From: Argopecten irradians
Taxonomy: Eukaryota > Mollusca > Bivalvia > Pectinida > Pectinidae
Direction: 5' to 3'
Length of the DNA stretch: 64,000 nt
Assembly (NCBI RefSeq): GCF_041381155.1
Contig: NC_091138.1
Coordinates: forward strand, 33,163,604-33,227,603
Below the pieces are notes generated by a model. It saw only the letters and a program-made list of their open reading frames with translations. It made no database searches and was not told the DNA's origin. The translations under genes and the position numbers were made by a program. Of this stretch, positions 7,855 through 38,900 are shown piece after piece. The number at the start of each line of letters is the position of its first letter. The first letter of the stretch is position 1.

Positions 7855-8079
7855 GGTTTTTGGTTTCATTAATATTAACGTCCTATTAACAGCCAGGGTC
7901 ATGTAAGGACGTGTCAGTATTGTTGGTGGAGGAAAAGACAGAGTACCCGGAGAAAAACCACCGATCAGTCGTCAGTACCTGGCAACTGCCCTACATGGGA
8001 TTCGAACCTGCATCCTAGAGGTGCAGGGCTTGTGGTAATATGTTGGGACATCTTAACCACTCGGCCACGGCGGCCCCCG
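7855..8079 (-). mobile_element. tRNA-derived SINE
   Basis: Read on the minus strand, the 5' end GGGGGCCGCCGTGGCCGAGT contains a tRNA A box (TGGCCGAGTGG at 8067-8057), and the B box GGTTCGAATCC lies at 8008-7998. The spacing and A box resemble a Ser/Leu-type tRNA. The tail carries GGTTTTTCTCCGGGTACTC and GGCTGTTAATAGGACGTTAA blocks shared with other copies here (39063, 57001). This tail type is common in mollusc genomes as I know them. Confidence 0.8.
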
Positions 8080-8508: not shown

Positions 8509-9005
8509 TTAATTTGTTTCTTTTGGAATTGTGTAAGGAGCCAACTCATGTTCGTCCATGTCACCGTGAAAACCTGCTTCCTCTGTTTCCTCAGCTTCTA
8601 CTTCGTCTTGTTCATCGCTTTCTCCTTCTTCTGAACTTTCTGAATCTCCTGCGGAATCTTCCTCGCTACTTTCACCTTCACTGTCTTCTTCTGAAGATGA
8701 ACTTACATCAGTTACGGATTCTCCTTCTTCTTCAACTACTGGTTCGATGTCCCCAGTTTCAGTTTTGATATCTTCTTCCTGCTCCTCTTGCTCCTGCTCA
8801 TCCTCCTCCTCTTGCTCTTCCTCTTGTTCTTCTTCCGCTTCCTGTTCTTCCTCCTCATCCTGTTCTTCTTCCGCTTCCTGTTCTTCGTCCTCCTTTTGTT
8901 TCTCCTGCTCCTCATCGTCTTCATCCTCCTCCTCTTCTATCTCCTCATTTTCCTCATCTTCGAACTCTTTTTCAGGCACATCCGCTGTATCAACATCACC
9001 ACCGC
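8509..9005 (-). other. Acidic Glu/Asp/Ser-rich C-terminal domain of gene A
   Basis: The C-terminal 160 or so residues of gene A are dominated by Glu and Asp, with Gln and Lys spacers, followed by a serine block of the SSEED and SEEGESDE type. Many serines sit in S-x-E context, the known FAM20C secretory-kinase consensus, so phosphorylation and calcium binding are plausible inferences. The acidic stretch leaves the complementary strand open as long Ser/Cys or Leu frames, which are not genes. A short mixed end with the HELAPYT motif precedes the stop at 8509-8511. Confidence 0.85.
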
Positions 9006-12000
9006 TAACTGGGCCCACTGGTATATGCATATCTTCTTCGGCATACGGAAACATTACAGCAAAAGAAGGTTTTGATACCCACTGTCCTGTCCCTGGAGCA
9101 GCCTGTCCGTCTTTATTAATCATTTGTGGGGCCTCCCCTGAAGATTTTCCTATTAACATAGGCGCTGGCTGTCCGTCTTTCCCCATCATCATTTCTGGCG
9201 CTGGCGCCTCTCCTGAAGATTTCCCCATAAACATTGGCGCTGGCTGTCCGTCTTTTCCCATCATCATTACTGGCGCTGGCGCCTCTCCTGAAGATTTCCC
9301 CATAAACATTGGCGCTGGCTGTCCGTCTTTTCCCATCATCATTACTGGCGCTGGCGCCTCTCCTGAAGATTTCCCCAAAAACATTGGCGCTGGCTGTCCG
9401 TCTTTTCCCATCATCATTACTGGCGCTGGCGCCTCACCTGAAGATTTTCCTGTAAACATATGTGCTGGCTGTCCGTCTTTACTCATCATCATTTCTGGCG
9501 CTGGCGCCTCTCCTGATGATTTTCCTATAAACATAGGCGCTGGCTGTCCGTCTTTACTCATCATCATAACTGGCGCGGGCGCCTCCCCTGAAGATTTTCC
9601 CATAAACACAGGCGCTGGTTGTCCGTCTTTGCCCATCATCATTACTGGCGCTTGCGCCTCCCCTGACGATTTTCCTACAAATATTGGCGCTGGCTGTCCG
9701 TCTTTACCCATCATCATTTCTGGTGCTGGCGCCTCACCTGAAGATTTTCCGATAAACATAGGTGCTGACTGTCCGTCTTTACCCATCATCATTTCTGGCG
9801 CTGGCACCACGCCTGAAGATTTCCCGATAAACATAGGTGCTGACTGTCCGTCTTTTCCCATCATCATAACTGGCGCGGGCGCCTCTCCTGAAGATTTTCC
9901 GATAAACATAGGCGCTGCTTGTCCATCCTTACCCATCATCATCCCTGATGTCATAGCAGGCGCTAATACATGTTCTTCACCAGGCATAAAAAGCACATTC
10001 TGTCCTTGAATCATCATCATAGGAGCATTTTTGCGACCTGCCATAACGTATCCCATTTCAGACTCCTCCAGATTTTCGGTTGGTAATAAGTTGGAATCCG
10101 AGTCGAGGAATACGACAGGAGAACTTGTTTCTCGATTAAATTCTGGAAGGTGTACGATAGCTGCAGGTTCGGAGTGATCAACAAAGTCGCCGAGATCATG
10201 GAGCTCTACAACCCCTTCTTCACCTCTTGGACCAGACGGTCCAGGTAGCCCGGGGGCTCCTATCTGTCCCGGGTGGCCAACGGGACCCGCTGGTCCAGGT
10301 TCACCTGGTGCACCAGGGAGACCTGGCGCTCCTCTCCTTCCCGTATCTCCGTGGTAACCCTGACCTCCCATGGGACCTGGTACTCCAGCATATCCTTCAG
10401 GTCCTTCTGCTCCCTGTGGACCTTGCTCTCCAAGGGGTCCTTAGATTGATGATAAATAAAAAATAATCTTAGTTTGATGACCGATATTCTTCCATATTTT
10501 ATGTATTATTGAAGGAATAATAGCTGAGTGCCAATTTGGGCCCTCTGGTTGCCATGACCGATAAGCATTATTTTTTGTTTACAGATACCCGGGGGTTAGG
10601 ACATCATGATATGACGTATGATTAAGGTCAGGTCGGAGTCCCTTGTGAGTTATAGGGGGTTAAACAGAGGGGCATTTTTTTTGTCCTGTTTTGTTGGAAC
10701 CAAATTATATTTTTGAATGTTTTTTTATGAATTATAATGCATTTATATTTTAAAAATAAAACATTTTGGAAAATATAACTTAGTTTCAAAAAATAGGTCA
10801 CAATGACCTAATTTTGTAAAATGTTAATTATGTAAGAAAAAATTGTATCTGGTACCATAATTACCAGAAAAAAGTTATGTATCATATTAGATTGCATCGA
10901 ACAATACATTTTTATATTAAAAACTTGACAAAAAATATGTTGTGGATGGGATGGAATAGGGGAGGGGAGCAAGGGGGTAGGGAGGAGGAGGATATTTTTT
11001 ATATTTTAAATTTTAAAACACCAATAAATGTATTGCTATGTTCAGAAGTAAGATAAACTGACTCGAATAGTATTATTTTTCTAAAATAAAACGCATTTGA
11101 GAGAATGTAATTATATATAATACAATGCATATTTAAAACATTTACAAAATCATTATTGCATTTGAAAATTTTTATATTAAATTATTTGAGCAAGTATATG
11201 ACCCTCTGAACATAAGCAAAAACATTTATTGGTGTTTTAAAGTTTTAAAAATAAAAATCCCCCTCACCTCTCCCCCCTGCTCCCCCTTCTCAATCCTTTA
11301 TAATCCACATTATTCCTTGCCCAAGTTTATAATATGCAAATGTATTGCTCAATGCAATATAATATAATGTATATAGCATTTTGTCAGGTATATTATGGCA
11401 TCTCATGAACTTTATTCTTATATAATTGACATTTTACAAAATCAGGTCACTGTGACCTATTTTTTGACACTAAGTTATATTTTCCAAAATCTTTAGATTT
11501 TTAACATATAAATGCATTATAATTCATAAAAAATATTTCAAATATATAATTTGGTTCCAACAAAACGGGACAAAACAGAAAATTGCCCCTCCTGTTTAAC
11601 CCCCCATAACTCACAAGGGACTCCGACCTGACCTTAATCATGCGTCATATCTTAATGTCCTACCCCCCCCGGATATCTGTAAACAAAAAATAATGTTCAT
11701 CGGTCATGGCCACCAGAGGGCCCAAATTGACACTCATCCAAATTTCAAGGAAAATATCATAATAGAAAATTGTATGAATAATCCATACGTTTGATTATCA
11801 TTAGTTTTTTTTATATCCATATGTTTATCATTGAAATTTTAAATCTCATAGGATACCATAAAATAAGTTTGTGTGTGCTATTTACCTGGTGGGCCAAAAT
11901 CGCCTCGGTCGCCTTTGGTGCCTGCGGGTCCTTGCTCCCCTGGAAAGCCTGGTGCGCCCCATTCACCCACCATTCCTGGGAAGCCAGGTTCGCCTTTGCG

Positions 12001-15000
12001 ACCACGAAACCCTTGAGGACCTGGAGGGCCGTACACTCCTCTGGTACCCTGAGGCCCAATTGGGCCTTGCAATCCGGGAGCACCTGTAGGTCCAACAGGC
12101 CCCTGGTCTCCCTTGTCCCCGTCCAGACCAGCAGGGCCTTGGATTCCTTGAGGTCCAGGAGCACCGTCATCGCCTTTCTCACCGGGCTCACCTTTAATTA
12201 GAACAGATGTATTTATAAAATCAGAATAGAATATTTGTATTACTATACCGCCTATCTGCACTCAAGGTATGTGTTCCCAAAAAGTTGATTGCATAAGGTA
12301 TAATTTTACGTTCACACCAAAAGTGTATCGATTGAGTACTGTAAACCACTTTATTTTTTGCGAGAAATAATTTTTCTCGTAAATTCGCGTGAAAGGTGTA
12401 ATGTGAATTCAAATGTTTGGCGAATAATTGTAAAAACGAATTATATGAATTATACGATTGTCAGTAGGAGACCGTGATGGCGAATCTATGACATTGCGAA
12501 TATGTTGAAAATAACGATGATGCAAAAAAAAATGCATACGCGAAAATAGAGTGGATTGTCTGCCGTAGTATTTCTACTCTCCGCTAGGCTTCGCTCCTAG
12601 CGCAGTTTAGTGGAGAGAATTGGTACTAAGGCAGGTAATCCAGTCTAACGCGAAAATAAATTGTTTTACAGTAACACGAAGCAGCTGTTGTTAAAAGATA
12701 CATTTCTTTCTTAGAGTTATTTAAAGTCCAAAATAATACAAAATAATGAAGTAGTATTTGTTGACTGTAAGGCACTTTGCATATGTTGTTATCACAAAGC
12801 TTATAGCTCAAACAATACATGAAAAATACAAACAAGCAAAAGTGAAATACATTGCATGTGATGATCGTAAATTGAGCGCAAGAAGTTGGGCGACCATTTT
12901 ATCACAGATATAAGCAATAAGGTGTGTCTTTTTTTTTTAATTTACGCAAACTCGATTACCCAATGTTATACATGACATACAGTGGGTACCAATTTTACCT
13001 GGCCTTATTGTTAATAGGACGTAAATAAATATAAAAACAAACAGAATGGAAGGGAGATCACTTAAGTGGATAACTTTTTTTCCGTTTTGATACCAATATT
13101 ATATTACGTTAAAAATTTTAACAATGTCGTAAATTGACATTAACAAATAGATACGTTACAGTGTGCGTATACTAGTGTACTTCTAGTGTTGCTTTCTGCT
13201 AATCGTAATACCTGGACGATACCTGTCTAATTTCCAACATTCACCGTCAATGGGGTTTTTCTGATTTGTTTATTGCTTTTCTTTTTTAAATATCTAATCT
13301 TGACCTAATAAACAAATTAAATCAATTTTGTATTATCTTCTTTAACATATTATTATTGACTGATAAAATACATTTAATCAATATATACTTATATTTCTAA
13401 TATAATACAGACGAGACAACACAGGTAAAGGCAGGTTATGCACACGTTATTATATCTAATTAAGATGGTTAGTTTGAAACAGACTATAACTCTAATATAT
13501 CTTTGTTTGCATAAGGCAAATCAGGATACAGCTAAATTAATTACAAAAATTATAAGCCATCACTTTCATCGCAAAAATTACATGGATGATTTCACTATAC
13601 ATCCAAGAGATAAATGATTAAGTAACGATAAACATTCCTATATGTAGCGACTTACCAGTCAACCCTGCAAATCCTGGGGCTCCCCTTCTATAGTACACGC
13701 CTCGTCTCACCCGACTAACTAGTATCTCCTCTTCTTTTGCTGCAAAAACAAAAACACATCAAGATCACTAAAACGTTCCTTTAGCGAGATATTTACTTTC
13801 ACGAATTTCGCAATCCAAATGATTAACTTAATATCTATCAAACGTAAATTATAATATATTTCCATTCCGCGAAAATTAATCTCCGTGAACTTGAAACTGA
13901 AATTGCGAAATTTAACAGCAGAGAAAGAAAGTTGGTTTACAGTATAAGAGGCTCTAGAACGTTTCAGAATATTAAATACACAATGAAGCTTCAAACATCA
14001 AGCTCATGTAAATAAGAAAAGTCTCATTTAAATAAATGAAATATGAAATCGTGTCTCTTCTCCGCCATTAAATAATATTTGATTGAAAAGTAATATCAAT
14101 TTAATCTCTACTTGAATGATTTATCATCTTCCAAGCTGATATCTAAATTAAAAAATAATATATCTATTTGGGTTACCCGACCGACCGTATTTTTTTTACC
14201 CTCGACCCTATTTTTTTCCATTTTTCTACGAAAAAAAATATATAAAAGTCTGAATTTCGATCTCAGACTCCGGTTCCGGCCATTATTTTAGAGTGAAAGA
14301 CACTTAAAAAATCCTTCCGACATACCGACCCTAATTTTTTGCCAATGTAACCCTAAACAGACATTTCTTTTTGGCCTAAAACACCTTTAAACGTAATGAT
14401 TACAATACAGTATGGACCAAGACAGATGAAACTGTTGTTAACTGTATTCTGTTTGATGTTATTATATACCAGGTACATACGAACAATGTGTAAGTAAGCC
14501 ATCATTACATTTGATGACAATATATAACAAAACGTTTATACGATGTGAGTTATCGTATTCCAAAGGGAAGATTGCAGTAGATGAATGTTTAGGTACATCA
14601 TTATAATATTGCTTATGGTAAGACTTCAAAGGATTAAAACAATAACATAATTAATAGCAAGTCAATGGAGGATGAACCGATTATGTTTATATTGAAAGAT
14701 GGTTGAACCAGTTCAATCAATCGAATAATTCCGTAGGGTGAATATATCAATATTAAATCAAATAAATTGTATTATCAATGTCAGAAAATAAACATATATA
14801 CAACAAAACTTAATACATTACAAGTATTTATATTGCGTCAAAAACAAAGTTCATTTCGCATGTAGGAACCAAAATATTTACTGTAATGAATGATTTAGTA
14901 TTCTAATGAATTGATTTAGTATTCTAAAAAAACGAAAGGGAATTATTCAGCATTGATTTTGGTTTACATTGAGATTTCTGGTTAGTTCCCAAATATTTAA

Positions 15001-15911
15001 AACATATACTATTTTATTGAAAACTTCTTTTTTTCACCAGAACATGCAACGCATTATTTAAAAAATATATATATTCATTGATCATATTTAAAATTTAATT
15101 TAATCCATTCTATAACTAATAAGATGTCCATTTTATGTTAAAAAATCAGCCTTATTTTCAACGAGTTTCGGCTTATAAACATGAATCATGTTGATTTTTT
15201 AAATAAAATTGACATATTTACTTAAGTCAATACATGTAGAGTGTGCTAACATTGCATCAAATGATCCCAACATATTATTTTGTAAACAGAATTATATTTC
15301 TGCTTATTTGCTCAACAAGGCGGTCATACAAGAAAAATAAATTGGAAATACTCAAGCCTTGTTTACCACAGCTACCATCATCAACAATATGTCAATATCA
15401 AATATATTTAGGTTACAAATCTTGAATACTATAGATCTCTTTGAGGTCTAATACACTATTTCCTGTAATTGATCATGGTCAGCTAAGGTTCAGTAACGCA
15501 CGTCTACCTTGGTATAATGACATAAGCGTATAGCTGTTACTACCAGTAAAGGAAATGGAGATACCGAAGGTCACTGTCTGATAGACCTCACGTACATAAA
15601 GGACTAGAGGTCACAACACTTTCCTGCAAATGGAGATTTGGCAATTAAGTGTCTGTTTGGAAAAAAAATGACGAAGAAAAGATAAATAAAGGAGAGAAAA
15701 AAATATATATCAGTGTGTAATAGACAAGTTCACTACCTTCTTCACGCAGCACTTCTTCCCGGACGCTGCTCAGCAATTCTTCCACTTCCTTGAGTTGTCG
15801 TTCAAAATTGTCTATCAGTGTCATCAATTCATCTGACACTTTGTCCGTCTGAACACGAAATCCGACACATACTCCAAGAAAGAGCATAAAGATGAAACTA
15901 CTTATTTCCAT
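8509..15911 (-). CDS. Collagen-like gene A: secreted short-chain collagen with Met-rich repeats and acidic tail
   Basis: Four exons: 15911-15737, 13739-13656, 12191-11886 and 10439-8509. All introns are GT-AG and phase 1, giving 831 aa. Exon 1 encodes a signal peptide (about residues 1-20) and a clean heptad helix (L, I, F, L, V, L, V, V at a/d positions, about residues 29-55). Exon 2 holds the furin motif RVRR (68-71), then GVYYRR. The Gly-X-Y helix runs without interruption from residue 78 for about 63 triplets (rest of exon 2, all 34 triplets of exon 3, start of exon 4). Then follow a linker, 11 copies plus a remnant of a 25-residue Met-rich repeat, and a Glu/Ser-rich acidic tail ending IPKETN. 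Family knowledge: furin cleavage would release the coiled-coil propeptide. Function is inferred to be extracellular structural or mineral-associated. The start is the only ATG giving a signal peptide. The splicing model is read by eye, but the frame is preserved throughout. Confidence 0.85.
9075..9942 (-). repeat. 75-bp coding minisatellite, Met-rich repeats of gene A
   Basis: Eleven near-identical 75-nt units plus a degenerate twelfth lie within the last exon of gene A. Each encodes 25 residues opening MMMGKDGQ and containing [15 protein letters not shown]. Variable positions are P/A/S after GKDGQ, M/I/V before F, I/M/V/L/T after F, and V/E at the unit end. The nucleotide units are highly similar, so they have recently expanded or been homogenised. 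The last units degrade to [13 protein letters not shown]. The three consecutive methionines and regular Pro-Ala-Pro spacing suggest an extended, disordered, methionine-rich linker. Function unknown. Confidence 0.93.
10795..10809. promoter_or_regulatory. AGGTCA-N3-TGACCT palindrome (ERE-like)
   Basis: AGGTCACAATGACCT is a perfect inverted repeat of the nuclear-receptor half-site with a 3-bp spacer, the consensus spacing of an estrogen response element. It lies in the left arm of the foldback element. The match is seen directly; any receptor binding is inference. Confidence 0.5.
11444..11458. promoter_or_regulatory. AGGTCA-N3-TGACCT palindrome (ERE-like), second copy
   Basis: AGGTCACTGTGACCT is the mirror-arm counterpart of the site at 10795. 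Spacer bases differ (CTG against CAA), but both half-sites are intact in both arms. Confidence 0.5.
12337..12673. mobile_element. MITE with ACTGTAAA...TTTACAGT termini, intron 2 of gene A
   Basis: Ends are TACTGTAAACCAC and GTTTTACAGTA. Inside are TTCGCG/CGCGAA motifs typical of this family and an internal hairpin at about 12556-12645 whose arms read CTGCCGTAGTATT and, inverted, GGTACTAAGGCAGG, around a stem with a GGCTTCGCTCC loop. There is no coding capacity. Related copies lie at 13765-13948, 20599-20838 and 21060-21232; 32489-32698 is a more diverged relative. Confidence 0.7.
13765..13948. mobile_element. Partial ACTGTAAA-type MITE, intron 1 of gene A
   Basis: The right end GTTGGTTTACAGTATAAG and the internal TTTCGCAATCC and CGCGAAAATTAAT motifs match the family. 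The left terminus is not recognisable, so the copy is truncated or diverged close to exon 2. Confidence 0.55.
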
Positions 15912-16024
15912 GGTAACGGTATTGTTAAAATATACAACGGTAGAACGAGATTGTGACTACTAAAGGTAAAATGGATATTTTTGAAATAAAGTGCGATGTC
16001 GGATACTTATCTTAGTGGGAATGA

Positions 16025-16032
16025 CTTTTATA
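16025..16032 (-). promoter_or_regulatory. Candidate TATA box of gene A
   Basis: TATAAAAG is read on the minus strand about 115 nt upstream of the gene A ATG. A start about 30 nt downstream would give a 5' UTR of some 90 nt. The giant poly-A tract begins (on the plus strand) about 0.5 kb further upstream. Confidence 0.5.
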
Positions 16033-16550
16033 AGGCGGAAGAGGAATTTAGCAGAAAAGTCTCGAACATACCACACAATCTGAAGCACACATGGCTTTCC
16101 GTAATTCAGTCAATGGGCTACGGTCAACTGCAAAAATTGGTATTTAGACTTGAGACAGAATCTGATATCAATGGTTCACCGAAAAAAGATAGGCTTGGGT
16201 AATTATCTCGATAAAGTAAGATGGGAAGAATGTGCATATGTGAAGGATTCTAATCTGTTTAATTCCTTTTCTACCAATGAGTCAGTTCAATTGTGGTTGC
16301 ATTGTATGAAACATTTTGTTTGTTCAATTATCGAGAACTGATAGCAGTAAAAACTTCAATCAGCACTTAAGGCTAGATATGATTATTGGTTAAAACGCTG
16401 TCTCTAACTGAGGTAATATTACACATTGCTTGGAAAGTGTGTAAGGTTACAGTTGCCTCGACCCTTGGAATCTTGCCCGTGGATTAAAAGGTGTCGGTCC
16501 AATTAATTTGAGTGTGTTATCATTGAGATACAATGTTTATTCTTACAAAC

Positions 16551-19696
<3,146 letters not shown>

Positions 19697-20598
19697 GGTA
19701 GATTTTCTCAGCAGATTCTAATATTATATCATCTCATCCTTAGTGTCATTACGTCGCAGAGACAACGTTTTCAAGCCAGATTTTAAGGGTGATTTTAGGT
19801 CAAGGGCAAAGTATAAATATTTTGCAAGGCGAAATAAATATCTTTTCAGAAAGTTATTAAATGTATTTATATCTATCTAGTGTGTCTGTGAATACGTTGT
19901 AAGGAACTAAGATGTACTGTATAAAGATTTTCTATTTTATTAAATTTCTTAAAAAAACATTTAGTGGGTGGGTCCGCTCACTATCCTATCAAAAGTTAAA
20001 ACTTCCATGTCTGTTTTAGCATTCTATTCATTTACCTAATACCAGTAGGGCTATATTTTCCCGTATGTTTTTGCGACCATCACAAAAACCAGATTGTGTT
20101 GTACAATACCACATTCAATACAATACAGAGCATGCGCTGGTTAACATCAGACATGGAAATCTCTTTTTAACTTAATTAATGTATAGAATTTCAATGTGTA
20201 GATCTAGGTCTGTAGTCTTGCCAACCTGGTAACATTTAAGATTCTGTTTCCAAAACACTAGCTATCTGAGATAAATCATATCTTATACGAACTAACAAAC
20301 GAAGCGGATCGGACTTCAAACAATCCCAGAATGCCAGACTCCATTAGGTATCACTTTCCCACACTCGGCTTCCTCAGTATACACCTTTGCCTAATCCGAT
20401 TAAATCCGACCATGTTAAAACAGGCAACCAGGGGTGATGAGTAACTATCTTATCATTCTACAATACATCCCACTGAATCAGTAGGAAAAAAATATATTCC
20501 AAACGTTAGTTACGAGGAAACCTTTCAACCGCGAACATTCTCGCTCGCATAATATTCTTGCATGTATGAAACTATAATGTTAGAAGTTCGAAGATGTG

Positions 20599-20838
20599 TA
20601 CTGTAAATCAACTTTTTTTTTTTGGCGTCCGGTTTTTCACGCGAATTTCGCAATCCATGTAAATAGGTTTTTCTCCACGAATTAATATCTATGTATTGAT
20701 AAGAATTTCTGTTCAATTTTTGATTGAAAGAAAGTTAGTCTACAACATATCGGGAAAATAACAACGTCGCGAAATGTTTACACATACATATGCAAATCAC
20801 GAAATTAAACACTCGCGAATATATCTACGTTTACAGTA
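20599..20838. mobile_element. ACTGTAAA-type MITE
   Basis: TACTGTAAATCAAC on the left and GTTTACAGTA on the right are inverted. TTCGCAATCC and CGCGAATAT lie internally. Non-coding. Confidence 0.65.
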
Positions 20839-21059
20839 TCAGAACTAGCGGTAAAAAGGTTCAGATACTTTAAATTATTAAAGACTAAATTCACGAGCGT
20901 TTTCCTAATTCAGGAGACTGTTTTAAAGAAAGGAAACAAAAAATGTGTATATGTATTAATTTAAGTAGTACCAATTACTAATATGCACTGTTTACTGAAT
21001 GTTCAGTTAAAAAACACACAAAAAATCGGCCTGATGATCAAAATACATTTCAGTGCACT

Positions 21060-21232
21060 TACTGTAAACCAACTCGCGTAGGAGTTATACAAAATCTCCG
21101 TGAATTAACATCGTCTTAATTTATTGAATTTCCTGTCAAATTTTAAATTCGCGAATATTAATCGTCGCGAGCTTATTTTGAAATGGAAATCGCGAAATTA
21201 AGTCGCCGCGAAAGAAAGTTGATTTTACAGTG
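21060..21232. mobile_element. ACTGTAAA-type MITE
   Basis: TACTGTAAACCAAC on the left and GTTGATTTTACAGT on the right are inverted. The interior has TTCGCGAATATT and AAATCGCGAAATT. Non-coding, about 173 bp. Confidence 0.7.
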
Positions 21233-23374
21233 CGTAACCCACATCAGTTATATATGTAAGATACGTGTTTACATACATATTAGAACAGAAGCAGTTGATA
21301 TTCTTGTCAACAAGACTAGGGGTATGATTTGAAGTATTTTTTTCGAAAATGTTAAAATTCCTTTAACAATTATTATACCCAATTTATATCCATAGAAAAC
21401 TCCGGTTTTCAAGAAACCAGGTTTTTGTCCCTATGAGTAAAAATAAATATCATTTTTATATATATTTATTTTTATTCTTGTTTTTGATTATGTATATTCT
21501 TGGTGTGTTTGCTATTTTTTTTATTTATCTTCATGTTATTTTATCTGTATTTCGTATTTTATTTTATTTGGCTTAAAATGTCTAAACATATTTTTCTGTT
21601 TATTTTCATTGTTTAGATAGGCTATTTGAGATAAAACAAATTTGTGAAATAGTTAGGTATAACTCAAATAATATACATCCATATATCTTTAAGTTTTGTT
21701 TGATATTTTGGTAAACGACTATCAAGTCATCAAACAAAGAAGCAAAATAAAAAAAGGAAGTAAAATTGTAAAGAACGGCAAAAATTACAAAAATACATTT
21801 TACAAGGAGCCCACTTAAAATCAATGCCGAGACTTAAAATACAACCCTTACTGAAGGCGTTTGCGGGATGGATATCAAGTATTAAAACAGAAATACATAG
21901 TGAACCTGAAGACAGGCAGATCAAAAACGTTAGATCAAAACATAAGTGGAAGACTTCGGGTAATACCTAAAGGATAATTACAGTCAGTGACTTTGATATA
22001 ATAAAAGTTTTCTGTTACACATGGCACATAGTACTTATTATTTATCATGGTATTATTTTCTGACGGTATGAAATAATATCGAAATGGAAAGGAAAGTATT
22101 CTATATATTCTATCTAACATGTATTGATAGTCATGTTTAACATATACATGTACTAGTGTAATAACACTAGTCATATCATTAACACATTTTCAAAAAACAA
22201 TATAGATGCTTCATTTAACACAGATTTCTCTAATTCCATGCTGTTTATCAAATTATCGAAATATTGATGTCGTTGAAATATCTTAACATATAACAACAGT
22301 GGAAAAATATTCATTTTAAGGTTTAAAATTTTATAAATTGAAGAAACATAGCCATTGATATTGATATACTGAAAATAAATTATTTAGATATATTTTTATG
22401 TCTATACATGTATATTGATGATATGGATATCGAGCCTGCATCCATTAATTGTCCTTATAAATCCTAATAAACAGTGCCCAACCATATAGCGATCTCTTAT
22501 TTTTTGTACAAAGAGATTTTTTTCAGAACTTGGCCATACCCCGTGTCATTCAAAATGATTGACCTGGGCAGTGATTCATAAGATACTGCAAATATCAGAT
22601 GTAGTGTTTAAACTCAAAATTATTCTTTCAATATTTTGATGTTCACGCGTGGAATAAAAAAAAATAGTGTATCTTACTTCTGACGTATTTCAGAATACGA
22701 TGCAATTGATGAGTAAGGCTGTTTGACGGTATACAGACTTCTTATCGAGTTTGTGTTAATTAACTTTATCAGTGTACCAGACTACCTAATAAAACCTCTC
22801 AATATTAAATGTTTTCTCCTCTAGAACAACACACATTGTACCCCACCCTCCCCTACAAGAAAACAACTACATACACTATCACCAGATTTTATTTGTAGAA
22901 TGTCAATTACGTTCTCGACCTTTATTCCCACACTCTACTCTTCGTGAAGACTTCAACAACACGATGAGAAAAATGGAAAAAAAATCAAATAATATTCAAG
23001 ATGTTTGAAGTATATAAAAAGAGGCAATGAAATTTCTCAAGTAATATTTTTTTTTATATTTTCACGTCCTTGTTTGAGTAATTATTCACATGCAAAAGCC
23101 CTTTCACTACCTTATTCCACTAAACTAATATCTCTTTCATGCACTGTTTATTTATTCGAATTGACATTGAAAGTTGTCCATAAGCTGCGTATATACCTTA
23201 CAGTATGAAACATGCTATTTTTATACATTAAACTTAATATAACGTACTCGTTACGTGCAACATGACACTTCACACCAACCGAATCAATTAAGCTTTCATT
23301 ATTTTGACATTTAAATAAAACACTCCAGGAAAAAAATGTAAAAAAAAAAAAATGTTTGGAATATGAATATAGAT

Positions 23375-23660
23375 AGTCCGCTAAACCTGTCTTTATTATT
23401 AGTCTTTTTATATTTATATATAGTCAGCTCGCGTTACTACAAAACTTGAAATCATAAGACAGATTATTTGAACTACGCTACATCAGCGGCATATTTCTTG
23501 GAAGTATCGAAATAAATAAAATTCCAATGAAAAGGTACATGCCCGGTTTATGTGTACGTTCCCCGGCATAAAACGCAACATTAGAAATATACCGCTGAAG
23601 TAGCGTAGGTCAAATCCTGCAAATGGCAAAACAATATAATATAGACAGGCGTTGCGAACT
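23375..23660. mobile_element. AGTCCGCTAAACCTG-type MITE carrying a nested hairpin
   Basis: The ends are AGTCCGCTAAACCTGTCT and its diverged inverse AGTTCGCAACGCCTGTCT, matching the element at 54791-54930. A second inverted repeat (23466-23615, arms TACGCTAC and GCGGCATATTTCT against their inverse, about 33 bp) sits inside it, suggesting one small element inserted in another. Confidence 0.65.
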
Positions 23661-26176
23661 ATTCTAATTAAACTATAACTTAATTATTAAAACAAATACT
23701 GTAAATGTACACATTTTATCTTATTTCCAACTGACATAATCCCTTAAATAATCGCTCTAATTACATTGCCTGCAATTAAAGCAATTATTAAAATACACAA
23801 ATTCATCATTGCACTGACTTATTCAAAATCATTTTTACGCTTAGATTTATTTCAGCCAAAATAAAGACGTTTAAATATTCTTCATTTCTTTCTAGCAGGA
23901 AATCTGTTACATATCAGCTTAGAAATAAATTTTCCCTAAAGAATGCTAAACAAATACAATACTCATTTCAATACAGGAGAAGTAGGTTTTAAGATAACGA
24001 TGTCCTAATTGAGCCAGTGCTGGGACCTGGACAGACATGATTGATGTAGTATACAGTTACCGAACATTTTGGCACAGCTTACAGGACTGGTAATGTAACA
24101 CGTACCAGGGCATATCTGGGCAGTATAAAGTAAAACGTCTATAGCAACTTAATTACAGAATTCAAATAAACATTCGCATGGATGTGTGTCGTTTCATCTT
24201 TTGACTTGATTATATTTTTTTGTACAGGTTTATTATGTCATGACTTATTTCAATTCAAATATTGTGCTCATCAGCTGTTTCAATATGTTTAGATTCCAGA
24301 AAAAGTTTCAAGTACATGCTACAAATGTAACCTGATTTTCTTTGTAGAATGTGTATAATTACATCTTCTTTTGGACCAATGTAAAAATCAGAACAGAAAT
24401 ATATTTGATTGAGGTTAAAGGTCTCGTTAGTCTTGCGATGCTCGCAATTAGAATAGGATTGTATTTACGTATGATCAGTAGAGTAAGGCCAACGCCGGGG
24501 TTACTGTTACTACTCAACGATATCGACTGTCATCTCTATAGCAACTTCATTTTGGAATAAATCTCAAAACGTTCGTAATTTGCTCATTTTGAGCAAGTGA
24601 TACGTGTACTTGAAGCGTGAGGGGAATGATTTAGAGATGCCTTGCCATCTCTTTCTTCAAGTATTCCTTCATTCGGGTTTAGGGTTCCCAGTTAAAACGT
24701 AAAGGGAAAACAAATGGGTTTTTTTCTTCAAATAGTGAAAAATAAAACCATTACATAAATACTTAAACAACCAGGTCCACCAACTTTCTAAAGTATAAAA
24801 TTCCTTATACAACGTATTAATTCTCACCACTGGAGAATACTGATAAACCGCCAATAGATTTAGGCTTACTACAACCATAACCAGAATCATTCAATAATAA
24901 TTATATTACCGCAAGGCATTTTAATAGATATTATCAAATTCCAAGAGTTCTGTTTTAAAGTTTAGAACTTCAACATTTTCACAATGGCCCCACGAATGAA
25001 TGTTCCTTTAACATTTAAATGAAGTAGGTTAGGTATGCTATCATATTTTACAACGTGTCTACGGACGTTCACTTAATTTCATTAAGGTAAACTAACCCAA
25101 CACAAACACTGGCGAGCGTTTATGGTCAGTTGCATCCTGCCAGCGTCTGCTTTCTAGAGAGTTCATCGACTCCCAACATGTGCCTATGAACGTCACGCCC
25201 GGCTCAGTAATTGTGGTTTGATTCGCCATATGCGTCAATACCGATAGCACTGGGCTCTGCAACATTGGTGCCCAATTGTGCATGCAGAGAGGAAGATATA
25301 CAAACTAAAATTGCTTGCATGTATTGCAGATTTTTTTATTATTATTATTATTTTTTTTATTAATTCAAATTTCAATTTTAATAATAAAAGTTCAGTGATT
25401 TTTTTATAAATTCAAACGAAATAGGTAATATGTATATGCCCGATTGTATCATATGCATTTTTCATTTCATTTTAAATTATGAAGATTTTCATTCTAAACA
25501 AAAGAATTTCGAGAATATAGTTAAGTGGTTTTGAACATGTTTGATATCTAATGAATAAAAATAAAGCATATATCTTATTTATTATTTAGCCGTGAAAATT
25601 TAAACCTGATAGTTGGAGATATAATTTGCAACAGATTTCCAAAAGAAGCAGTTACAAAGAAAGTTAGATTGACAATGAAAAATATCATGGAAATAATCAA
25701 TGATGCCGTTTCCTGAAACATGTTCGCGAACACAGCATACAGCATAAAGCATGGATATAAACTTTATTCAGCCATAAACATATTTTGAACACAAATACAA
25801 CATAATAATGAAGATTTGTTTTGTTGAATTACCATACTTATAAGGCAAATAAACGATTTAATCACTATTGAACATAAAAATTAACATCCATTCAGTGAAC
25901 GACTTCTATAACAGCAGTTGTTGTATTTCCGGAATTGATGATTATTTAAGATTCATTTAGTTGACCTAACATTATTAAAAGGAAATAAATTATTTAGATA
26001 ATATCAAACTACAAAACCATTTGAAAAATTTACTATTGTATAAACTATGGCCATATCACGCTCGTTATCGGACGACTTGGCAATTTGACGTACACGAACA
26101 AGAATGCAAAGACAGCATTTCTTAGTCGGGGCAAGGTGTCTGCCAGGGAGAGTTCAGTATGCTAATTAGGGCCGGG

Positions 26177-26184
26177 TATATAAG
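26177..26184 (+). promoter_or_regulatory. TATA box of gene B
   Basis: TATATAAG in a GC-richer context lies 60 nt upstream of the gene B start codon. A start site near 26205 would give a 5' UTR of about 40 nt. Confidence 0.7.
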
Positions 26185-26243
26185 CTCGCGTCCAGCCTCA
26201 GTACCCCAGTCCTTGGCTCACTTGCAGTAAATTCTACGTCATT

Positions 26244-28382
<2,139 letters not shown>

Positions 28383-28583
28383 TAAGCGTAAATGTATTTA
28401 TTAAATAAGACATTTTGAAATTCCAATGCATTTTCATTCATTTGTTCTATTCCATCGAATTATTTGTCGGCTGGTTATAAATGTTACTTTCAAATAATTT
28501 TAGTGTTCAGGCATACCGTCCAATTGGCAACAAACTATATAAATGTGATGAAAACCATGTTATCGTTGCTCTATGGCTGAACA

Positions 28584-28589
28584 AATAAA
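28584..28589 (+). terminator. Poly(A) signal of gene B
   Basis: AATAAA lies about 200 nt after the stop codon, preceded by an AT-rich 3' UTR. It is the most likely cleavage signal, though an AT-rich region can contain it by chance. Confidence 0.55.
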
Positions 28590-28605
28590 ACACTATAAAG
28601 TATCC

Positions 28606-30550
28606 AGTCTTAATAGTCTTTCTTTACACTCAGTAAAACTCATTCAGTAGATGCTATATACCGACAGTAAGATCTAATGTACTTAAATGTATGAAATCGC
28701 AAAGAAATTACGTGTAGTATTAACATTAATTGACATTTAGATTGTTTAAGTGTATGTGGACCTGCAACGCAGAGAAGAACAACTTAACCTCGATTGATTT
28801 CTAGTATTCATATATGAAATCCAAATGATTGGAAATAATTTCATAATCAGTGATTTTGGTCATATGGCATCTATAGTACCATTGCACAAAAGCCAGTCGT
28901 TACTCCGAATATACAGGAATTCTTTGTATAAAATACCATGTAGCCGGTAATTTTCGAGGGGATCAGATTTCGAGACTTCGCTGGACAATTTTATAATCGC
29001 GATAACTAAATGCACAAAAAGCGGGTAAAAGATAACCCATGTATATTACTACGGCTATGTTGCGTTACATTCGTTAAAACCTTCACAGTTTAAGTATATA
29101 CCTCGAATTATTTGATTCATGAAATAAACGGCTATGATATTTGGATTAGCGATGGACCGGAACGTATACCGTCACGTTTGGCAGACCCGTTCTGCTTCGT
29201 TACACACAAGCAGTTGATTTCACTTCAACGTACAGTGTTTCAGAAAACCTGTTTCGACTTTCGTGTGTAAAGGGTATGTCAGCGCTTTATATTTATTGAT
29301 AACAGATAAACCTGAGATAGCGGACAATTCTTAATTAATTGAGTATTGTTTGGCTATTAACGTCATAATCAATAGTAAAGATAGATGCAATGAAGAAACA
29401 TTATATTTTGTTGCAGAATATCATTTATTTAACGGTAAATCGTTGATGCAGTGAAGTGAAAATACTACTCGGATAAATGAGAATATCGTGTCACCAGTAT
29501 GGGTTCTGTTGCACACGGTTGCTACTTAGCAAACTTTTATATATACGTGTTTTGAATTTAGTAAGTCGAAACATATTATCCGAAACAGTCTGTACAAATT
29601 ATGATAATATCAACTTAAATCAAACCGGTCAGGTTCCATCAATGATTCTTAACGTAAGTACAGATTATATAATTATACTAAAATGATGTATGTGTAATGA
29701 ATTACAGGCATTTATGAAATTATTTGTGAAATGCATTACAACGTTTATCAATATTTCACAGTGAATATGTTACAGATTGTCCTTATTTTCAGTGAAATAT
29801 ATTAAAATATAGTACTATGATAAAGTAGATGACGAATTTACTTATTTACTTTGAGTTGAGAACTGTTATGAAACCTGACCAGCGTATCTACTTACTTTAA
29901 CTATATGCATATATGTGTACTTATATTTTTTTGAAGTTGAAAAACTTATTATGAACGCTAGACTTTATATCTCCGAGTACCAGTTCGATGATTTCAGAGG
30001 AGCAGTTTTATCCATTTTAGCGTTCTGTGATAGTTTAAGGTAACCATTGTACGCATTGTGTTGTGACTGTCGCCGTATTACCAGGAATACAGTTCATTAC
30101 AAAAATCTTACGATTTTATTGTGGTAAAATTGTTAGAATTCTCGATAATTCAGAAAAAAAAAGAAAAAAAAATTGGCATTTTATGCTTTTTTATATGTAT
30201 GTATTTCGTAAACACTCAAATTATCATGTATTTATTCAAAATCCACAAAATAAACAGGTAAACCTACTTATCAGAGTAATTCTCTTTTAAATAAAAGTTT
30301 TGTACTTTGGTACTCGGTATCAAGCAAATTGACATTGAAACGAAGGGAATTTTTGAATACTGCTGCACCGGTAAGGACCCCAACAACAAAGCATTTCGAC
30401 ATAACACAGAGGGGTAAGCATTACGGCACTGGAGACGAAGATTTTGCGGTCGTGAGTCGATGTACGGTAAGAATGACCGGGATAGGAAGCATACATTTTG
30501 ATCACAATGACATGAATAATCACTCTATAAGTTATTTGGTTCACTCAATG
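28606..30550. other. Region between collagen units B and C
   Basis: AT-rich and unique. I walked through the ATGs for a signal peptide plus heptad exon ending in phase 1, as seen in A and B, and found none. No repeat family is obvious. Confidence 0.5.
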
Positions 30551-30553
30551 CTG

Positions 30554-30561
30554 TATATAAG
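30554..30561 (+). promoter_or_regulatory. Possible TATA box upstream of unit C
   Basis: TATATAAG matches the gene B box exactly and lies 153 nt upstream of the first recognisable exon of C. Only a short leader, ending near a GTACGT donor at about 30607, would fit between, and it has no signal-peptide frame. It may be coincidence. Confidence 0.25.
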
Positions 30562-30713
30562 TATACAACAGACAAAGTCAGGGAGACATCAAGTCATCCC
30601 ATGTAGGTACGTGCGAGTTTTAATTAATAAAAGATTAATAATTAAGTTCACTTTGATGACTTAATATGTAAATTTCCAATATAAATATTTGATGTATATG
30701 TACTCCCCTACAG

Positions 30714-32145
30714 AGGATGGTAAAGTAAGGAGAAAGAGACACATGTGGGTCGCCGGACCACCAGGACCCCCAGGCAGCACTGGTAAGTCCAACTAAATGC
30801 CATCTTAAAATTCTAAAATACATGTAATTCAAAATAATGTTTTGATTTCTACAACCTTTTTTCTCTCAAATGAATATGATAAATTTAATGAATGAAAAGA
30901 TCTAGTAAGTTCTGTTAAAATATGTAGGCTTTATACTTTGTTCATTCAGAATTTAATAAAAAGAACTTGAAAAATGTGTCCCTCGTGGTAATCAGTACCA
31001 ACTTCAAACAATTTTCTGGGTCTAAACAAAGCCTGGCATGCACTAAAAGTACATACACAGGAATTTCTGTTGTGAAATGACATTTTATAAAAAAAAAAAC
31101 ATAAGTGTATTTGATACCTGGTAATTTATTTTTAAGGCGAACCAGGACATCCTGGTCTTCCCGGTGCCGCTGGACCACAAGGAGAGACTGGATACCCAGG
31201 CTTTAAGGGTGAGCAAGGAGATCAGGGAGCGGGAGGCGAACAAGGAGCTCCAGGAGCGCATGGACCTCAAGGACCAAAGGGCGACCAAGGAGCACCAGGC
31301 GAGATGGGAGCTATGGGAGAGCAAGGCGAGAAGGGAGACACCGGGCCAGACGGAGAGCAAGGACAACCAGGTGAACAGGGTCAACCCGGACCAGCTGGAC
31401 CACAAGGACCTGTTGGCGAGCCAGGCCACTATGGACCACAGGGTTAGTATAAGTTGACACTGTATACCAAATGCCTGATGTCTGAACAAGTTATGTACAT
31501 CGTGTTGAGTACCATTGGGAGTACGCTCAAGAGGAATGAGGCATTTATCTTGATCAATATCTTGAATAGTATGTTTGAGCATAAATAAGACAGTTGAAAA
31601 CAAAGATTGGCAGTTCATTTTGTTGGGGTTCTTCAGCAGCTGTCTTGCGGATGAATGGATTGTCTTATTATATCCTCTACCTTAACATGTTGGTGATAGT
31701 TTTACTCTTCCTTGTCCTCCAATTAACAGATCAGTGATATAGTTTATTTAACATTCCCTCAAACGTCAGTCACGCTGTTTATTTTACTGGTCTCTTACCT
31801 TATATTTAATACTGGTAACATTTTGTCGTATGTTACTGATCTTGAATCTTTCATCCTTCAGGATACCCAGGAATGCCAGGAGAGCCAGGACATGTCGGAA
31901 TACAGGGATTCCCAGGAATGCCAGGAGAGGAAGGTCCAGCGGGACCACCCGGAGCTGTGGGTGAGGCTGGAGCCCCTGGAGCACCAGGACCCCACGGCCC
32001 ACAGGGACCAATGGGGGAGACCGGTCTCCCCGGCCGACAAGGAGTTCAGGGATACCCTGGTGCCCGTGGATCACGCGGAGCCCCGGGACAGGCATACGCT
32101 ATTAGATATAAGAGCGCGCCGGCTCCACGTACTACTAAGGGTTAA
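30714..32145 (+). CDS. Collagen-like unit C (5' exon not found)
   Basis: Three in-frame exons, 30714-30782, 31137-31442 and 31862-32145, have phase-1 GT-AG introns. The first encodes [18 protein letters not shown]: a furin motif RRKR directly before an aromatic HMW segment and the helix start. The second exon is 306 nt (34 triplets), the same size as exon 3 of gene A. The helix totals 63 uninterrupted triplets, then a 16-residue basic tail [16 protein letters not shown]. The start given is the acceptor of the first recognisable exon, not a start codon. No signal/coiled-coil exon was found upstream. C could be an alternative 3' part of gene B (exon 1 of B has the right phase), a gene with an unrecognised first exon, or a gene that has lost its 5' end. 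AATAAA motifs follow at 32148, 32159 and 32416. Confidence 0.82.
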
Positions 32146-35902: not shown

Positions 35903-38900
35903 CTTTGTCACTTTGTCACTCTTTGTCACTTTGTTTGTTTTTGTTTTTCCTGTAGTTTTCTGATCTACTTTCTTTTTCTTTTGTGGAGGTCCCGATGAAT
36001 CTATTTTCTTTTTCTTCTCTGGAGGTCCAGATGATTCTGAAGCCCTTCGTTTGGAACTTGTTCTAGAGAACAGGTCTGAAATATTATAGAGGTAACATAA
36101 GTAAAGCCAATTTTATGTAATGATTTAAAGGAAATGATGGCAGTCAGGCAGATAGCAAAGCTGCACTATAATACAACTTCAATGGTCATTCAGCCAGCTG
36201 AGCTAAAAATTGACATTACCGAGAGGGTATCCTTTCAGTAATTTTAGAGGAGTAGAATAATCAAATTTAATTGTCAAATTCAAAGTTTGCCACTTCTACC
36301 TACACTGATTTCTTATTGGTCCCGAAATAAAATATTATACTACGGCTATTTAACCTACATATATAATTTGAGAAAGATCCCTGGACTAATTTCGAAGAAA
36401 TAGTAGTTACAAACTCTCAAATTTCAAGATGGCTTCCTATTTATTTATTTTTGTTGTGATGACTCAGAATATGAGTTGAAACATTAAAACATTTCTCAGA
36501 ATTCAGAATTAAATGTATCTTAGTATACCATGTTTGACTGGTTTCCTTTCATATTAAAGTAATTGCCAATCTAATTAAAATCATACTTCCCCTCCACTAC
36601 GATACCCTACCCTACGCTCCAATGCAAATTAGACTTATAATTCTGCTCAACTATGATACTCTATAATACGCCCTAATACAAGATCTAACATTGCTCCGTT
36701 CGTGGTCACCTCAGCATGACCCCTATGGTTATCCAATCAGCATGTCTTTTACGAAATCTTCAGTGTGTTTGATTCTCTCGTATATACAGCAACTATCTAC
36801 ATAGTATATCCGGAGATGTTATGATTCTAGGCCCTGAGGTGACGAGGGCATTGTTATGATTCTAGTGTCGTAGTGAAGCAGAATTACAAGTCTAACTTTA
36901 ATTAGATTGAAATAATGGCCTACATGTATATGGACAGATATAAGATACCTAGCAGTATGGTGGCCAATATGATTACGAAAATTTAAAGTATCCCAAAAAA
37001 ATGATCGCCAATATATAAATGGGCAGATACTGTAAACATTGTGTTTGTGTTTCTTTTTATTCTACTACACAATAAATTTGTATATAAAAAGTTTTCATCT
37101 TTTTGGTTCCATTATCTACACAATGAAAAGTCCATGTTATAGAGTAACACTTGGTAATGCTGACCTGGTTCTGGGTCCTCTCCCACTTCCTGTCTGTAAT
37201 AATCAGCATCATCCATGTCCTCTTTATCTGCAAAATAAAAATTATCGGTAAGTGAATTTAAGTTCTGTATACCATCTCTCATGTATATTACTCAAAATAT
37301 CATATTGATACCCCATATGGTGACCATAAGGTTATGAAATTCAAAATTGTAATAAAGAATTCTTAATTTTAGTCAATACACCCTTTCTGTATAGGATAAT
37401 AAATCCCTTCCATTTTTCCCTTTTTCAAATGGAATGGTGAATAACAATGACTTTTAAAGATGCTCCATCGCCGACAGACCAAAAATGATATTCATCATTT
37501 GAACAATAATTGGTGTTTAATCGTGTATATAATAGTCTAATTAACACAAAAAAATAATATAAAATAATTTATTTTGCCTTTGGTACATGCGCATTCAGTA
37601 GTTCATTTCATATAGGATATAGTGGTACGGATTTTTTTGGGATGCAATTAATTATTTTTCATATTTTTAACTTGAAGTAAAATTAGAAGCTCAAACTTTC
37701 CAATGGTGGTAATGGTGTAAAGTAAGTAACTTTTGTAACTGAAGAAAAATACTAAATCGTCTGCTCGAGTTTTTAATAGTGAAAAAATACCATTTGTCAG
37801 CAGTGGAGCATCTTTAAGGTTGTTTTTTTTTTAAATTCATCCTTTTATGCATAGGATAATGTGGCCGATCCACTTTAGTAGAATTTGTCTTTTTCACAAG
37901 GAATGCAAAAAAAATAGTCAATGTCACTGAGCTTTGATTTTTTTTTCTTCTATTTAAGTCAATTCACCTTTTCTTTTATAGGATAATATGGTCTGTATAT
38001 CTTCAATTTTTTTTCTTTTTTTTTTTTCGCTTTTATAAGGAATGGAAAAAATAGTCCATAATAAGATGTAACACGACATACACCCTACCCTCTCTCCGAG
38101 TTACCAGGTAATTAAATATCAATTCACTACACACACAAACATATTTCATATAAAAAATAGTCCATAATAAGATGTAACATGACATACACCCTGCCCTCTC
38201 GCCGAGTTAATTAAATATCAATTCACTACACACAAATATATTACATACATATATAATGTTATTTTTTGTTTCAATTTTTCAATTAGGTTACACATACTGA
38301 ATAGCACTGAAACTTCAAAGAGGACTAGATAAATCTGGACATGTTTGATAAAAAGCTGCTGGAATTGTTCTCACCCAACACACTCGGCCTATACAGTACA
38401 CAGACACTTTAGGTTAGACACGGTTCATTAACACAGGATCTGGTAGGCAGCATACATATAGGGGTCTTCAACTAAAGGGCCATGTGTGCTGAGGTTGTGA
38501 TAAGTCTATCATACTAAGGCAAAGAGTTTACAAAGAAAAAGGCCCATTGGGCATTTAAAGTTCTAAAACATTAAAGACAAAATGATATTTTTACTAACTT
38601 ACAAACCCTTGCTGTCTGTCATTTTATCATATAGATATTCATAAAAAAAATCTTGGTTGTCCAAAAGTCTTACTTACAGGCTTTAGTACGGATATGTTTG
38701 AAATATGTGACCTTGAAATATTTGAGATGACATCAGTGTTTTTCCTGGGTAATTTGGGAAATTGCCACCTGGTGAAAATTGGGAAATTTTGTGCGATAAA
38801 AGTATACGTAGGAAATGAAAAATTGAAACGGTGTTTATGGAAATTTTGGAAAAGGTAAAAATAGACAATTATGCTTCTCTAAGAATCAAGTGTAAGAATG

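Follow-up and report, generated by a model that had tools for sequence, protein, structure and literature searches.

A tandem pair of short, equal-length collagen units, present in two copies, that may share one signal and coiled-coil exon

Precedents for collagen helices that fold from the N-terminus come from the MACIT collagens, and precedents for convertase cleavage on the N-terminal side of the helix from both the MACIT and the nematode cuticle collagens. In MACIT collagens (XIII, XXIII, XXV and C. elegans COL-99) an N-terminal coiled coil assists trimerisation and furin sites are present (PMC4678570), and the helix is described as folding from the N-terminus (PMC10538796); according to the passages cited, none has been identified in Mollusca or Annelida (PMC4678570). 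The cuticle collagens (e.g., DPY-17 and SQT-3) have a signal peptide or a transmembrane (TM) domain, a dibasic convertase site in front of the Gly-X-Y repeats, N-terminal coiled coils in some cases, and tyrosine cross-linking, the direction of their helix assembly being stated as unknown (PMC10538796, in the part cited). Among molluscs, three tandem novel collagen genes of Perna viridis (pvir_s00096.g4-g6) are described as highly expressed and perhaps important in byssus formation (PMC7971044), trypsin-based proteomics failed to identify collagen in the byssus of Pinctada (PMC4597212), and a collagen combining VWA with triple-helix repeats is reported to be absent from three mollusc genomes (PMC5597905, in the passages cited). 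Here, we analyzed a stretch of 64,000 nucleotides (C5:33163604-33227603, hereafter the window) of a genome of 846 Mb in 1508 contigs, which contains three collagen units, gene A, gene B and unit C (all models are sequence-derived). A second contig (C6) carries paralogues of B and C in tandem, B'-C'. The two pairs may each represent a cassette locus, in which one promoter and one signal/coiled-coil exon serve two equal-length collagen modules by alternative splicing, with an identical prodomain and mixing in register before cleavage, maintained on two chromosomes since an old duplication; we regard this reading as evenly balanced. No description of this collagen set was found among the papers listed in searches of the open-licence PMC literature, judged by title, start of abstract or passages.

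The units in the window were modelled as follows (positions are those of the window).

26177..26183, plus strand: TATA-like box of gene B
26244..26388, plus strand: gene B exon 1, signal-like stretch and predicted coiled-coil prodomain (heptads 26313-26378), probably shared with unit C
27239..27298, plus strand: conserved intronic stretch 5' of gene B exon 2, possibly the branch/pyrimidine tract or a splicing control
27299..27397, plus strand: gene B exon 2, acidic linker, convertase site RMKR (27328-27339), N-telopeptide, triplets 1-3
27724..28382, plus strand: gene B exon 3, 59 more triplets (62 in total), Tyr/Lys/Pro tail with YQPA repeats, stop
30714..30782, plus strand: unit C exon 2, phase-1 acceptor (own exon 1 not found), convertase site RRKR (30728-30739), HMWVA, triplets 1-3
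31137..31442, plus strand: unit C exon 3, 306 nt, 34 triplets
31862..32145, plus strand: unit C exon 4, 26 triplets (63 in total), 16-residue tail, stop
15737..15911, minus strand: gene A exon 1, signal-like stretch and predicted coiled-coil prodomain (best heptad run 15750-15815)
13656..13739, minus strand: gene A exon 2, convertase site RVRR (13702-13713), GVYYRR, triplets 1-3
11886..12191, minus strand: gene A exon 3, 306 nt, 34 triplets
8509..10439, minus strand: gene A exon 4, 26 triplets and a 565-residue tail with 11 Met-rich units (~9127-9942) and a 170-residue Glu-rich end (~8512-9021)

An earlier note on this DNA had described three collagens of equal helix length spliced in phase 1, two of them with a common middle exon, and these parts of it agree with the models: its coordinates and helix counts were right (the spliced models contain uninterrupted Gly-X-Y runs of 63, 62 and 63 triplets in A, B and C), all internal exon borders of the three units are GT-AG in phase 1, and the 306-nt exon is common to A and C, in which the layout of the helix (3+34+26 triplets) is identical. 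The Collagen family (Pfam PF01391) matched B with 108 bits against a cut-off of 27.2, and the exons of A, B, C, B' and C' all exceeded this cut-off. No further Pfam family was above its cut-off in the whole of B or in two pieces of A (the first 96 residues and the first 207 residues of the tail).

When the prodomain encoded by B exons 1 and 2 was searched against the genome, four matches were obtained, namely the two exons of B and two exons of B' (66% identity over query residues 1-50). The second pair was modelled on C6, C' lying on the same strand as B' and 4.4 kb downstream.

C6:11882411-11882555, 11883407-11883505 and 11884871-11885508: B', 63 triplets
C6:11889892-11889960, 11890166-11890471 and 11891355-11891650: C', 63 triplets

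Exons 2 (69 nt) and 3 (306 nt) of C' are identical in size to those of C. Near B'-C' no gene A-like unit and no further run of at least five triplets were seen in the surrounding 99 kb, and a genome search with the A prodomain recovered no paralogue (two matches, both A's own exons). The searches with the A and B prodomains do not recover each other. A survey of collagens in the genome (150 of 728 candidates scored) led to 20 inspected regions, two of which (L008 and L009) contain B'-C'; the layout was absent from the other 18, as read from the listed Gly-X-Y runs and not from full gene models (L018 and L019 gave no run under the filter). Further members of the family may exist elsewhere in the genome.

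All five modelled chains thus have 62 or 63 triplets. The helix is divided 3+34+26 in A, C and C', and over two exons in B (3+59) and B' (3+60), as if the 34/26 intron had been lost from the B-type genes. For the triplet that B lacks, the best position is the C-terminal end of the helix (a tie among 60-62), and a gapless alignment fits B/B' to the last triplet (62) and C/C' throughout (63). Identity at the X and Y positions is 54% for B/B', 56% for C/C' and 24-31% between B-type and C-type helices. Among the 51 shifts compared, B-type against C-type scored highest in register (permutation p of 0.001 with B and of 0.0005 with B'). Judged by this register, the helices of B, B', C and C' are homologous by common descent. 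For the helix of A against the other four, the register came sixth among the 51 shifts (p 0.12, or 0.06 with just C and C' as partners), and the in-register X/Y identity of A with C (0.198; shifted versions: mean 0.151, maximum 0.221) indicates no clear likeness beyond the Gly frame; homology of A's helix in register is therefore not supported, though its exon layout is identical.

The ratio of nonsynonymous to synonymous substitution rates (dN/dS) in the helix was 0.25 for B/B' and 0.13 for C/C', with dS values of 1.2 and 2.0 that are near or at saturation and make the ratios rough. With X and Y codons alone, dN/dS was 0.28 for B/B', and dS for C/C' was beyond measure. Between C and C', 63 of 63 Gly codons keep GG and 34 of 63 differ at the third base; between B and B', none of 62 differ at the first two bases and 31 of 62 at the third. 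From the pattern of Gly codons and dN/dS, the helices of both B and C are judged to be under purifying selection, translated and retained over a long time. A recent duplication as the source of the equal lengths was considered and ruled out, because dS is above 1.

The C-terminal tails have changed freely (565 residues in A, 42 in B, 32 in B', 16 in C and 20 in C'). The tail of A consists of 11 units of about 25 residues with MMM(G/S)KDGQ (16% Met in the repeat region), followed by a 170-residue end with 40% Glu; that of B carries YQPA repeats; and the 16 residues of C include four K/R and no D/E, which confirms how the three tails had been described before (Met repeats with an acidic end, YQPA, short and basic). 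Both B-type and C-type tails are basic, contain Tyr, Lys and Pro, and lack Asp and Glu. The motif YKSAPAP is exact in B', C and C' (B itself holds a looser form only), and B-type and C-type tails are therefore related; the view that the tails are unrelated survives only for A, whose tail stands apart. A genome search with the Met repeat of A gave 19 matches, two of which are A itself, and the other 17, at 24-49% identity, probably reflect Met-rich composition. The best non-self match (C7:2401995-2402546; E 9e-10, 27% identity) lies in an open frame of 308 residues, possibly another Met-rich repeat protein.

The N-terminus of A, B and B' is hydrophobic and signal-like, and is followed by a 22-residue heptad run in which 7 of 7 core positions are hydrophobic; among 5000 shuffles, 6 scored as high for A and 1 each for B and B'. 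The hydrophobic stretch reads as a signal peptide; AlphaFold2, run without an alignment, gives B a helix at residues 3-17, then a break and a second helix at 21-45, and A exon 1 one continuous helix (residues 2-57, mean predicted local distance difference test score, pLDDT, of 96), single helices being easy to predict and thus weak support. No relative of the prodomain was found in the PDB (best E 0.45). An R-X-K/R-R convertase motif is present in exon 2 of all five chains (RVRR in A, RMKR in B, RRKR in C and B', RKKR in C'), 5-10 residues in front of the first Gly and separated from it by an aromatic N-telopeptide. Cysteine occurs only at residue 15 of A and residue 4 of B', within the signal-like stretch in both, and nowhere thereafter in the five chains. 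This arrangement predicts trimerisation at the N-terminus, followed by cleavage.

The first recognised exon of both C and C' has a phase-1 acceptor, and the DNA upstream yielded no usable start. In translated comparisons of C5 with C6 (plus-strand frames of at least 20 codons; 10 shuffles per region), for which B exon 1 served as positive control with 79.3 bits, no first exon for C was detected in the B-C intergenic DNA (2331 bp in C5, 4383 bp in C6; best match 19.2 bits over 10 residues, shuffles 16.2-21.2), upstream of B (20.8 bits, shuffles 20.0-25.8) or in the B introns (15.0 and 10.0 bits, inside the shuffle ranges). In a looser comparison of both strands, the matches listed for the DNA part included a 41-bp match at 83% just 3' of the B stop, in the B 3' untranslated region (3'UTR), and short C6 minisatellite matches. 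Between the two copies, the 150 bp 5' of the B start codon, i.e., the promoter with the TATA-like box (z 7.2), the 60 bp in front of B exon 2 (z 6.1) and the B 3'UTR (z 4.9) were conserved (0 of 200 shuffles each). The 60 bp 5' of C exon 2 (z -0.1, 107 of 200 shuffles), the next 100 bp (z 1.8, 12 of 200) and the C 3'UTR (z -0.7, 146 of 200) were not. In both B and B', exon 1 closes in phase 1 with a single G, and exon 2 starts with AG in C and with AA in C'; a join would create a Glu codon at the junction in either copy and keep the prodomain in frame with the convertase site behind it. Since the pair is old and the C helices are selected, C needs a source of a signal peptide if it is secreted like other collagens, and B exon 1 is the simplest one. 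We infer that C may be an alternative 3' module spliced to B exon 1. The earlier picture of three independent genes with unrelated tails is not supported, as C appears without a first exon of its own and the B-type and C-type tails are related.

Several points weigh against this sharing of an exon and the trimerisation attached to it. B has its own 3' end in front of C, so that, to yield C, transcription would have to read past the B poly(A) site and splicing would have to skip B exons 2-3, and the 60 bp 3' of the B exon 1 donor are not conserved (z 0.2, 94 of 200 shuffles). A scan for signal-like open reading frames (ORFs) with a phase-1 donor returned one candidate in the C5 intergenic DNA and three in that of C6; the 19.2-bit match, which is at noise level and was counted as noise, overlaps one of the three C6 candidates and no C5 candidate. 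TATATAA lies 160 bp 5' of C exon 2, and four TATA-like matches lie at -352 to -548 in C6, the region being AT-rich. A short, divergent first exon can escape detection, and the heptad core would also fit a dimer instead of a trimer. The match of Trimer_CC (Pfam) to residues 24-41 of B is weak (E 0.08, under the cut-off), and the roughness of the dN/dS values mentioned above belongs here as well. C may be a gene of its own, with a small, divergent and unrecognised signal exon situated in the B-C intergenic DNA or further upstream, and A, B and C plain neighbours. That A possesses its own exon 1, that prodomains can diverge as far as those of A and B, together with the TATATAA and the candidate ORFs, speak for such a gene; in none of the three regions compared (plus-strand frames of at least 20 codons), however, did a translated match rise above the shuffles, the best one touches a candidate ORF in C6 but none in C5, and the DNA in front of C exon 2 is unconserved whereas the B promoter is conserved, so that we consider a separate C gene a doubtful, if serious, possibility. 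A C-specific promoter at the TATATAA was tried and rejected, because the exon ahead of the strong-looking donor that follows would hold only ATG-TAG, without a signal peptide, and it is unconserved in C6. That C is a decaying copy, which lost its first exon and with it secretion, would also account for the signal exon not being found; it is highly improbable, given that the open frame, the splice sites, the convertase site and 63 of 63 Gly codons have stayed intact in C and C' since the old duplication, with a dN/dS of ~0.13.

A related question is what the equal helix length means. The earlier note had taken a constant helix with variable tails to suggest heterotrimers or homotrimers that co-assemble in register. 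Its observation holds, as a constrained length with freer ends is found in the old second copy too, but equal length alone is no evidence of heterotrimers, because B, B', C and C' are homologous by descent and helix indels would be selected against. Common descent of these four, plus selection against indels in the helix, is the first explanation of the equal length, and heterotrimers are possible. Homology in register also fits the view that equal length reflects nothing except common descent and has no meaning for assembly. We think this unlikely: the duplications are old (dS above 1; X/Y identity of 0.24-0.31 between B-type and C-type), yet neither B/B' nor C/C' shows an internal gap in the helix, the tails range from 16 to 565 residues while the helix length holds, and A retains 3+34+26 with almost no remaining sequence similarity.

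Taken as a whole, secreted short collagens with N-terminal trimerisation, cleavage and exon sharing between B and C provide the explanation that we somewhat favor. A, B and C would be secreted, short, non-fibrillar collagens folding from the N-terminus, in which a signal peptide, together with a coiled coil three to four heptads long (from the heptad patterns and the helix predictions for A and B) would bring three chains together, and the triple helix of 62-63 triplets would zip from N to C. With the usual rise per residue, such a rod measures ~54 nm. A furin-type convertase would probably cut at R-X-K/R-R, 5-10 residues before the helix, and leave a rod whose N-ends are short and aromatic and whose C-tails are special. 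The Tyr/Lys/Pro-rich, basic tails of B and C are likely to enter oxidative or Tyr-based cross-linking, and the Met-rich and polyacidic tail of A likely combines a protein scaffold with contact to Ca2+ or mineral. B and C would form one transcription unit, with B exon 1 spliced to exons 2-3 of B in one form and to exons 2-4 of C in the other; because the shared exon would give both chains identical trimerising prodomains, B and C could mix in register. If true, the same removable trimerisation tag on two rods of equal length would be a simple natural answer to the choice of partner and register in collagens, and a ready design for engineered materials.

Some other features were noted in the window and the genome. 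Between genes A and B (window 16562-19693) lie 3.1 kb of near-pure poly-A with sparse C interruptions, possibly an assembly or sequencing artefact. Two ORFs at window 41330-43090 contain QRICH1 and DUF3504 domains and a phage-integrase match below cut-off, perhaps a mobile element or gene of the tyrosine-recombinase type, and window 37454-37819 and 7899-8077 are interspersed repeats with several copies near the C6 locus (74-88% identity). Among other collagen-like regions, Gly-X-Y matches at C10:6670044-6677039 and C10:6610959-6612659 lie in open frames of 2372 and 1486 residues (very long collagen exons). Collagen-repeat arrays with a period of 162 nt (54 residues) and equal scores occur at C10:22942300-22946400 and on contig C412; the one on C412 is perhaps an unplaced copy of that on C10. 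C2:30773200-30824504 is a duplicated block of short, interrupted GQKG-type collagens, the copies of which, 42-47 kb apart and near-identical by eye, point to a recent or haplotype duplication.

How do these chains compare with known collagens? Fibrillar collagens have ~338 triplets and a C-propeptide domain; the helices here have 62-63 triplets, and collagen was the only Pfam family above cut-off in B and the two pieces of A. Cuticle collagens have interrupted helices with cysteine clusters, unlike the chains here, in which the helix is one uninterrupted run and no Cys follows the signal region. The mussel preCols combine long helices with flanking silk-like and elastin-like blocks and His-rich ends, all of which are absent from the tails described here (read by eye). 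The likeness to cuticle collagens is in the N-terminal plan and in the Tyr-based cross-linking that is likely for B and C, and the convertase site of DPY-17, RVRR, has the same letters as that of gene A (PMC10538796). The MACIT-type combination of coiled coil and convertase site is present in A, in B and, judged by heptads and motif, in B', and in C and C' only if they use a B-type exon 1. MACITs, according to the part of the account cited, have three COL domains with conserved cysteines and a conserved C-terminus (PMC4678570), whereas the chains here have a single COL domain and no Cys after the signal region. MACITs also possess a TM domain (PMC4678570); in the chains here the hydrophobic N-terminus reads as a signal peptide, with a predicted helix that breaks after it in B and runs on in A. 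With the mussel byssal collagens (Col-D, Col-NG, Col-P) and the P. viridis trio they share the clustering of collagen genes (PMC7971044), and orthology with the trio, known by description rather than by sequence, is only a lead. The tail of A resembles insoluble, Met-rich proteins from the shell and ligament of Pinctada fucata (NU-5 and others), which have a Met-rich region and, in some of those from nacre and prisms, a Glu- or Asp-rich region, but for which the passages cited describe no Gly-X-Y helix (PMC7591529). In gene A, a 63-triplet helix is joined to such a Met-rich tail, and it would thus tie collagen to the Met-rich insoluble proteins of mollusc shell and ligament, if organism and tissue fit.

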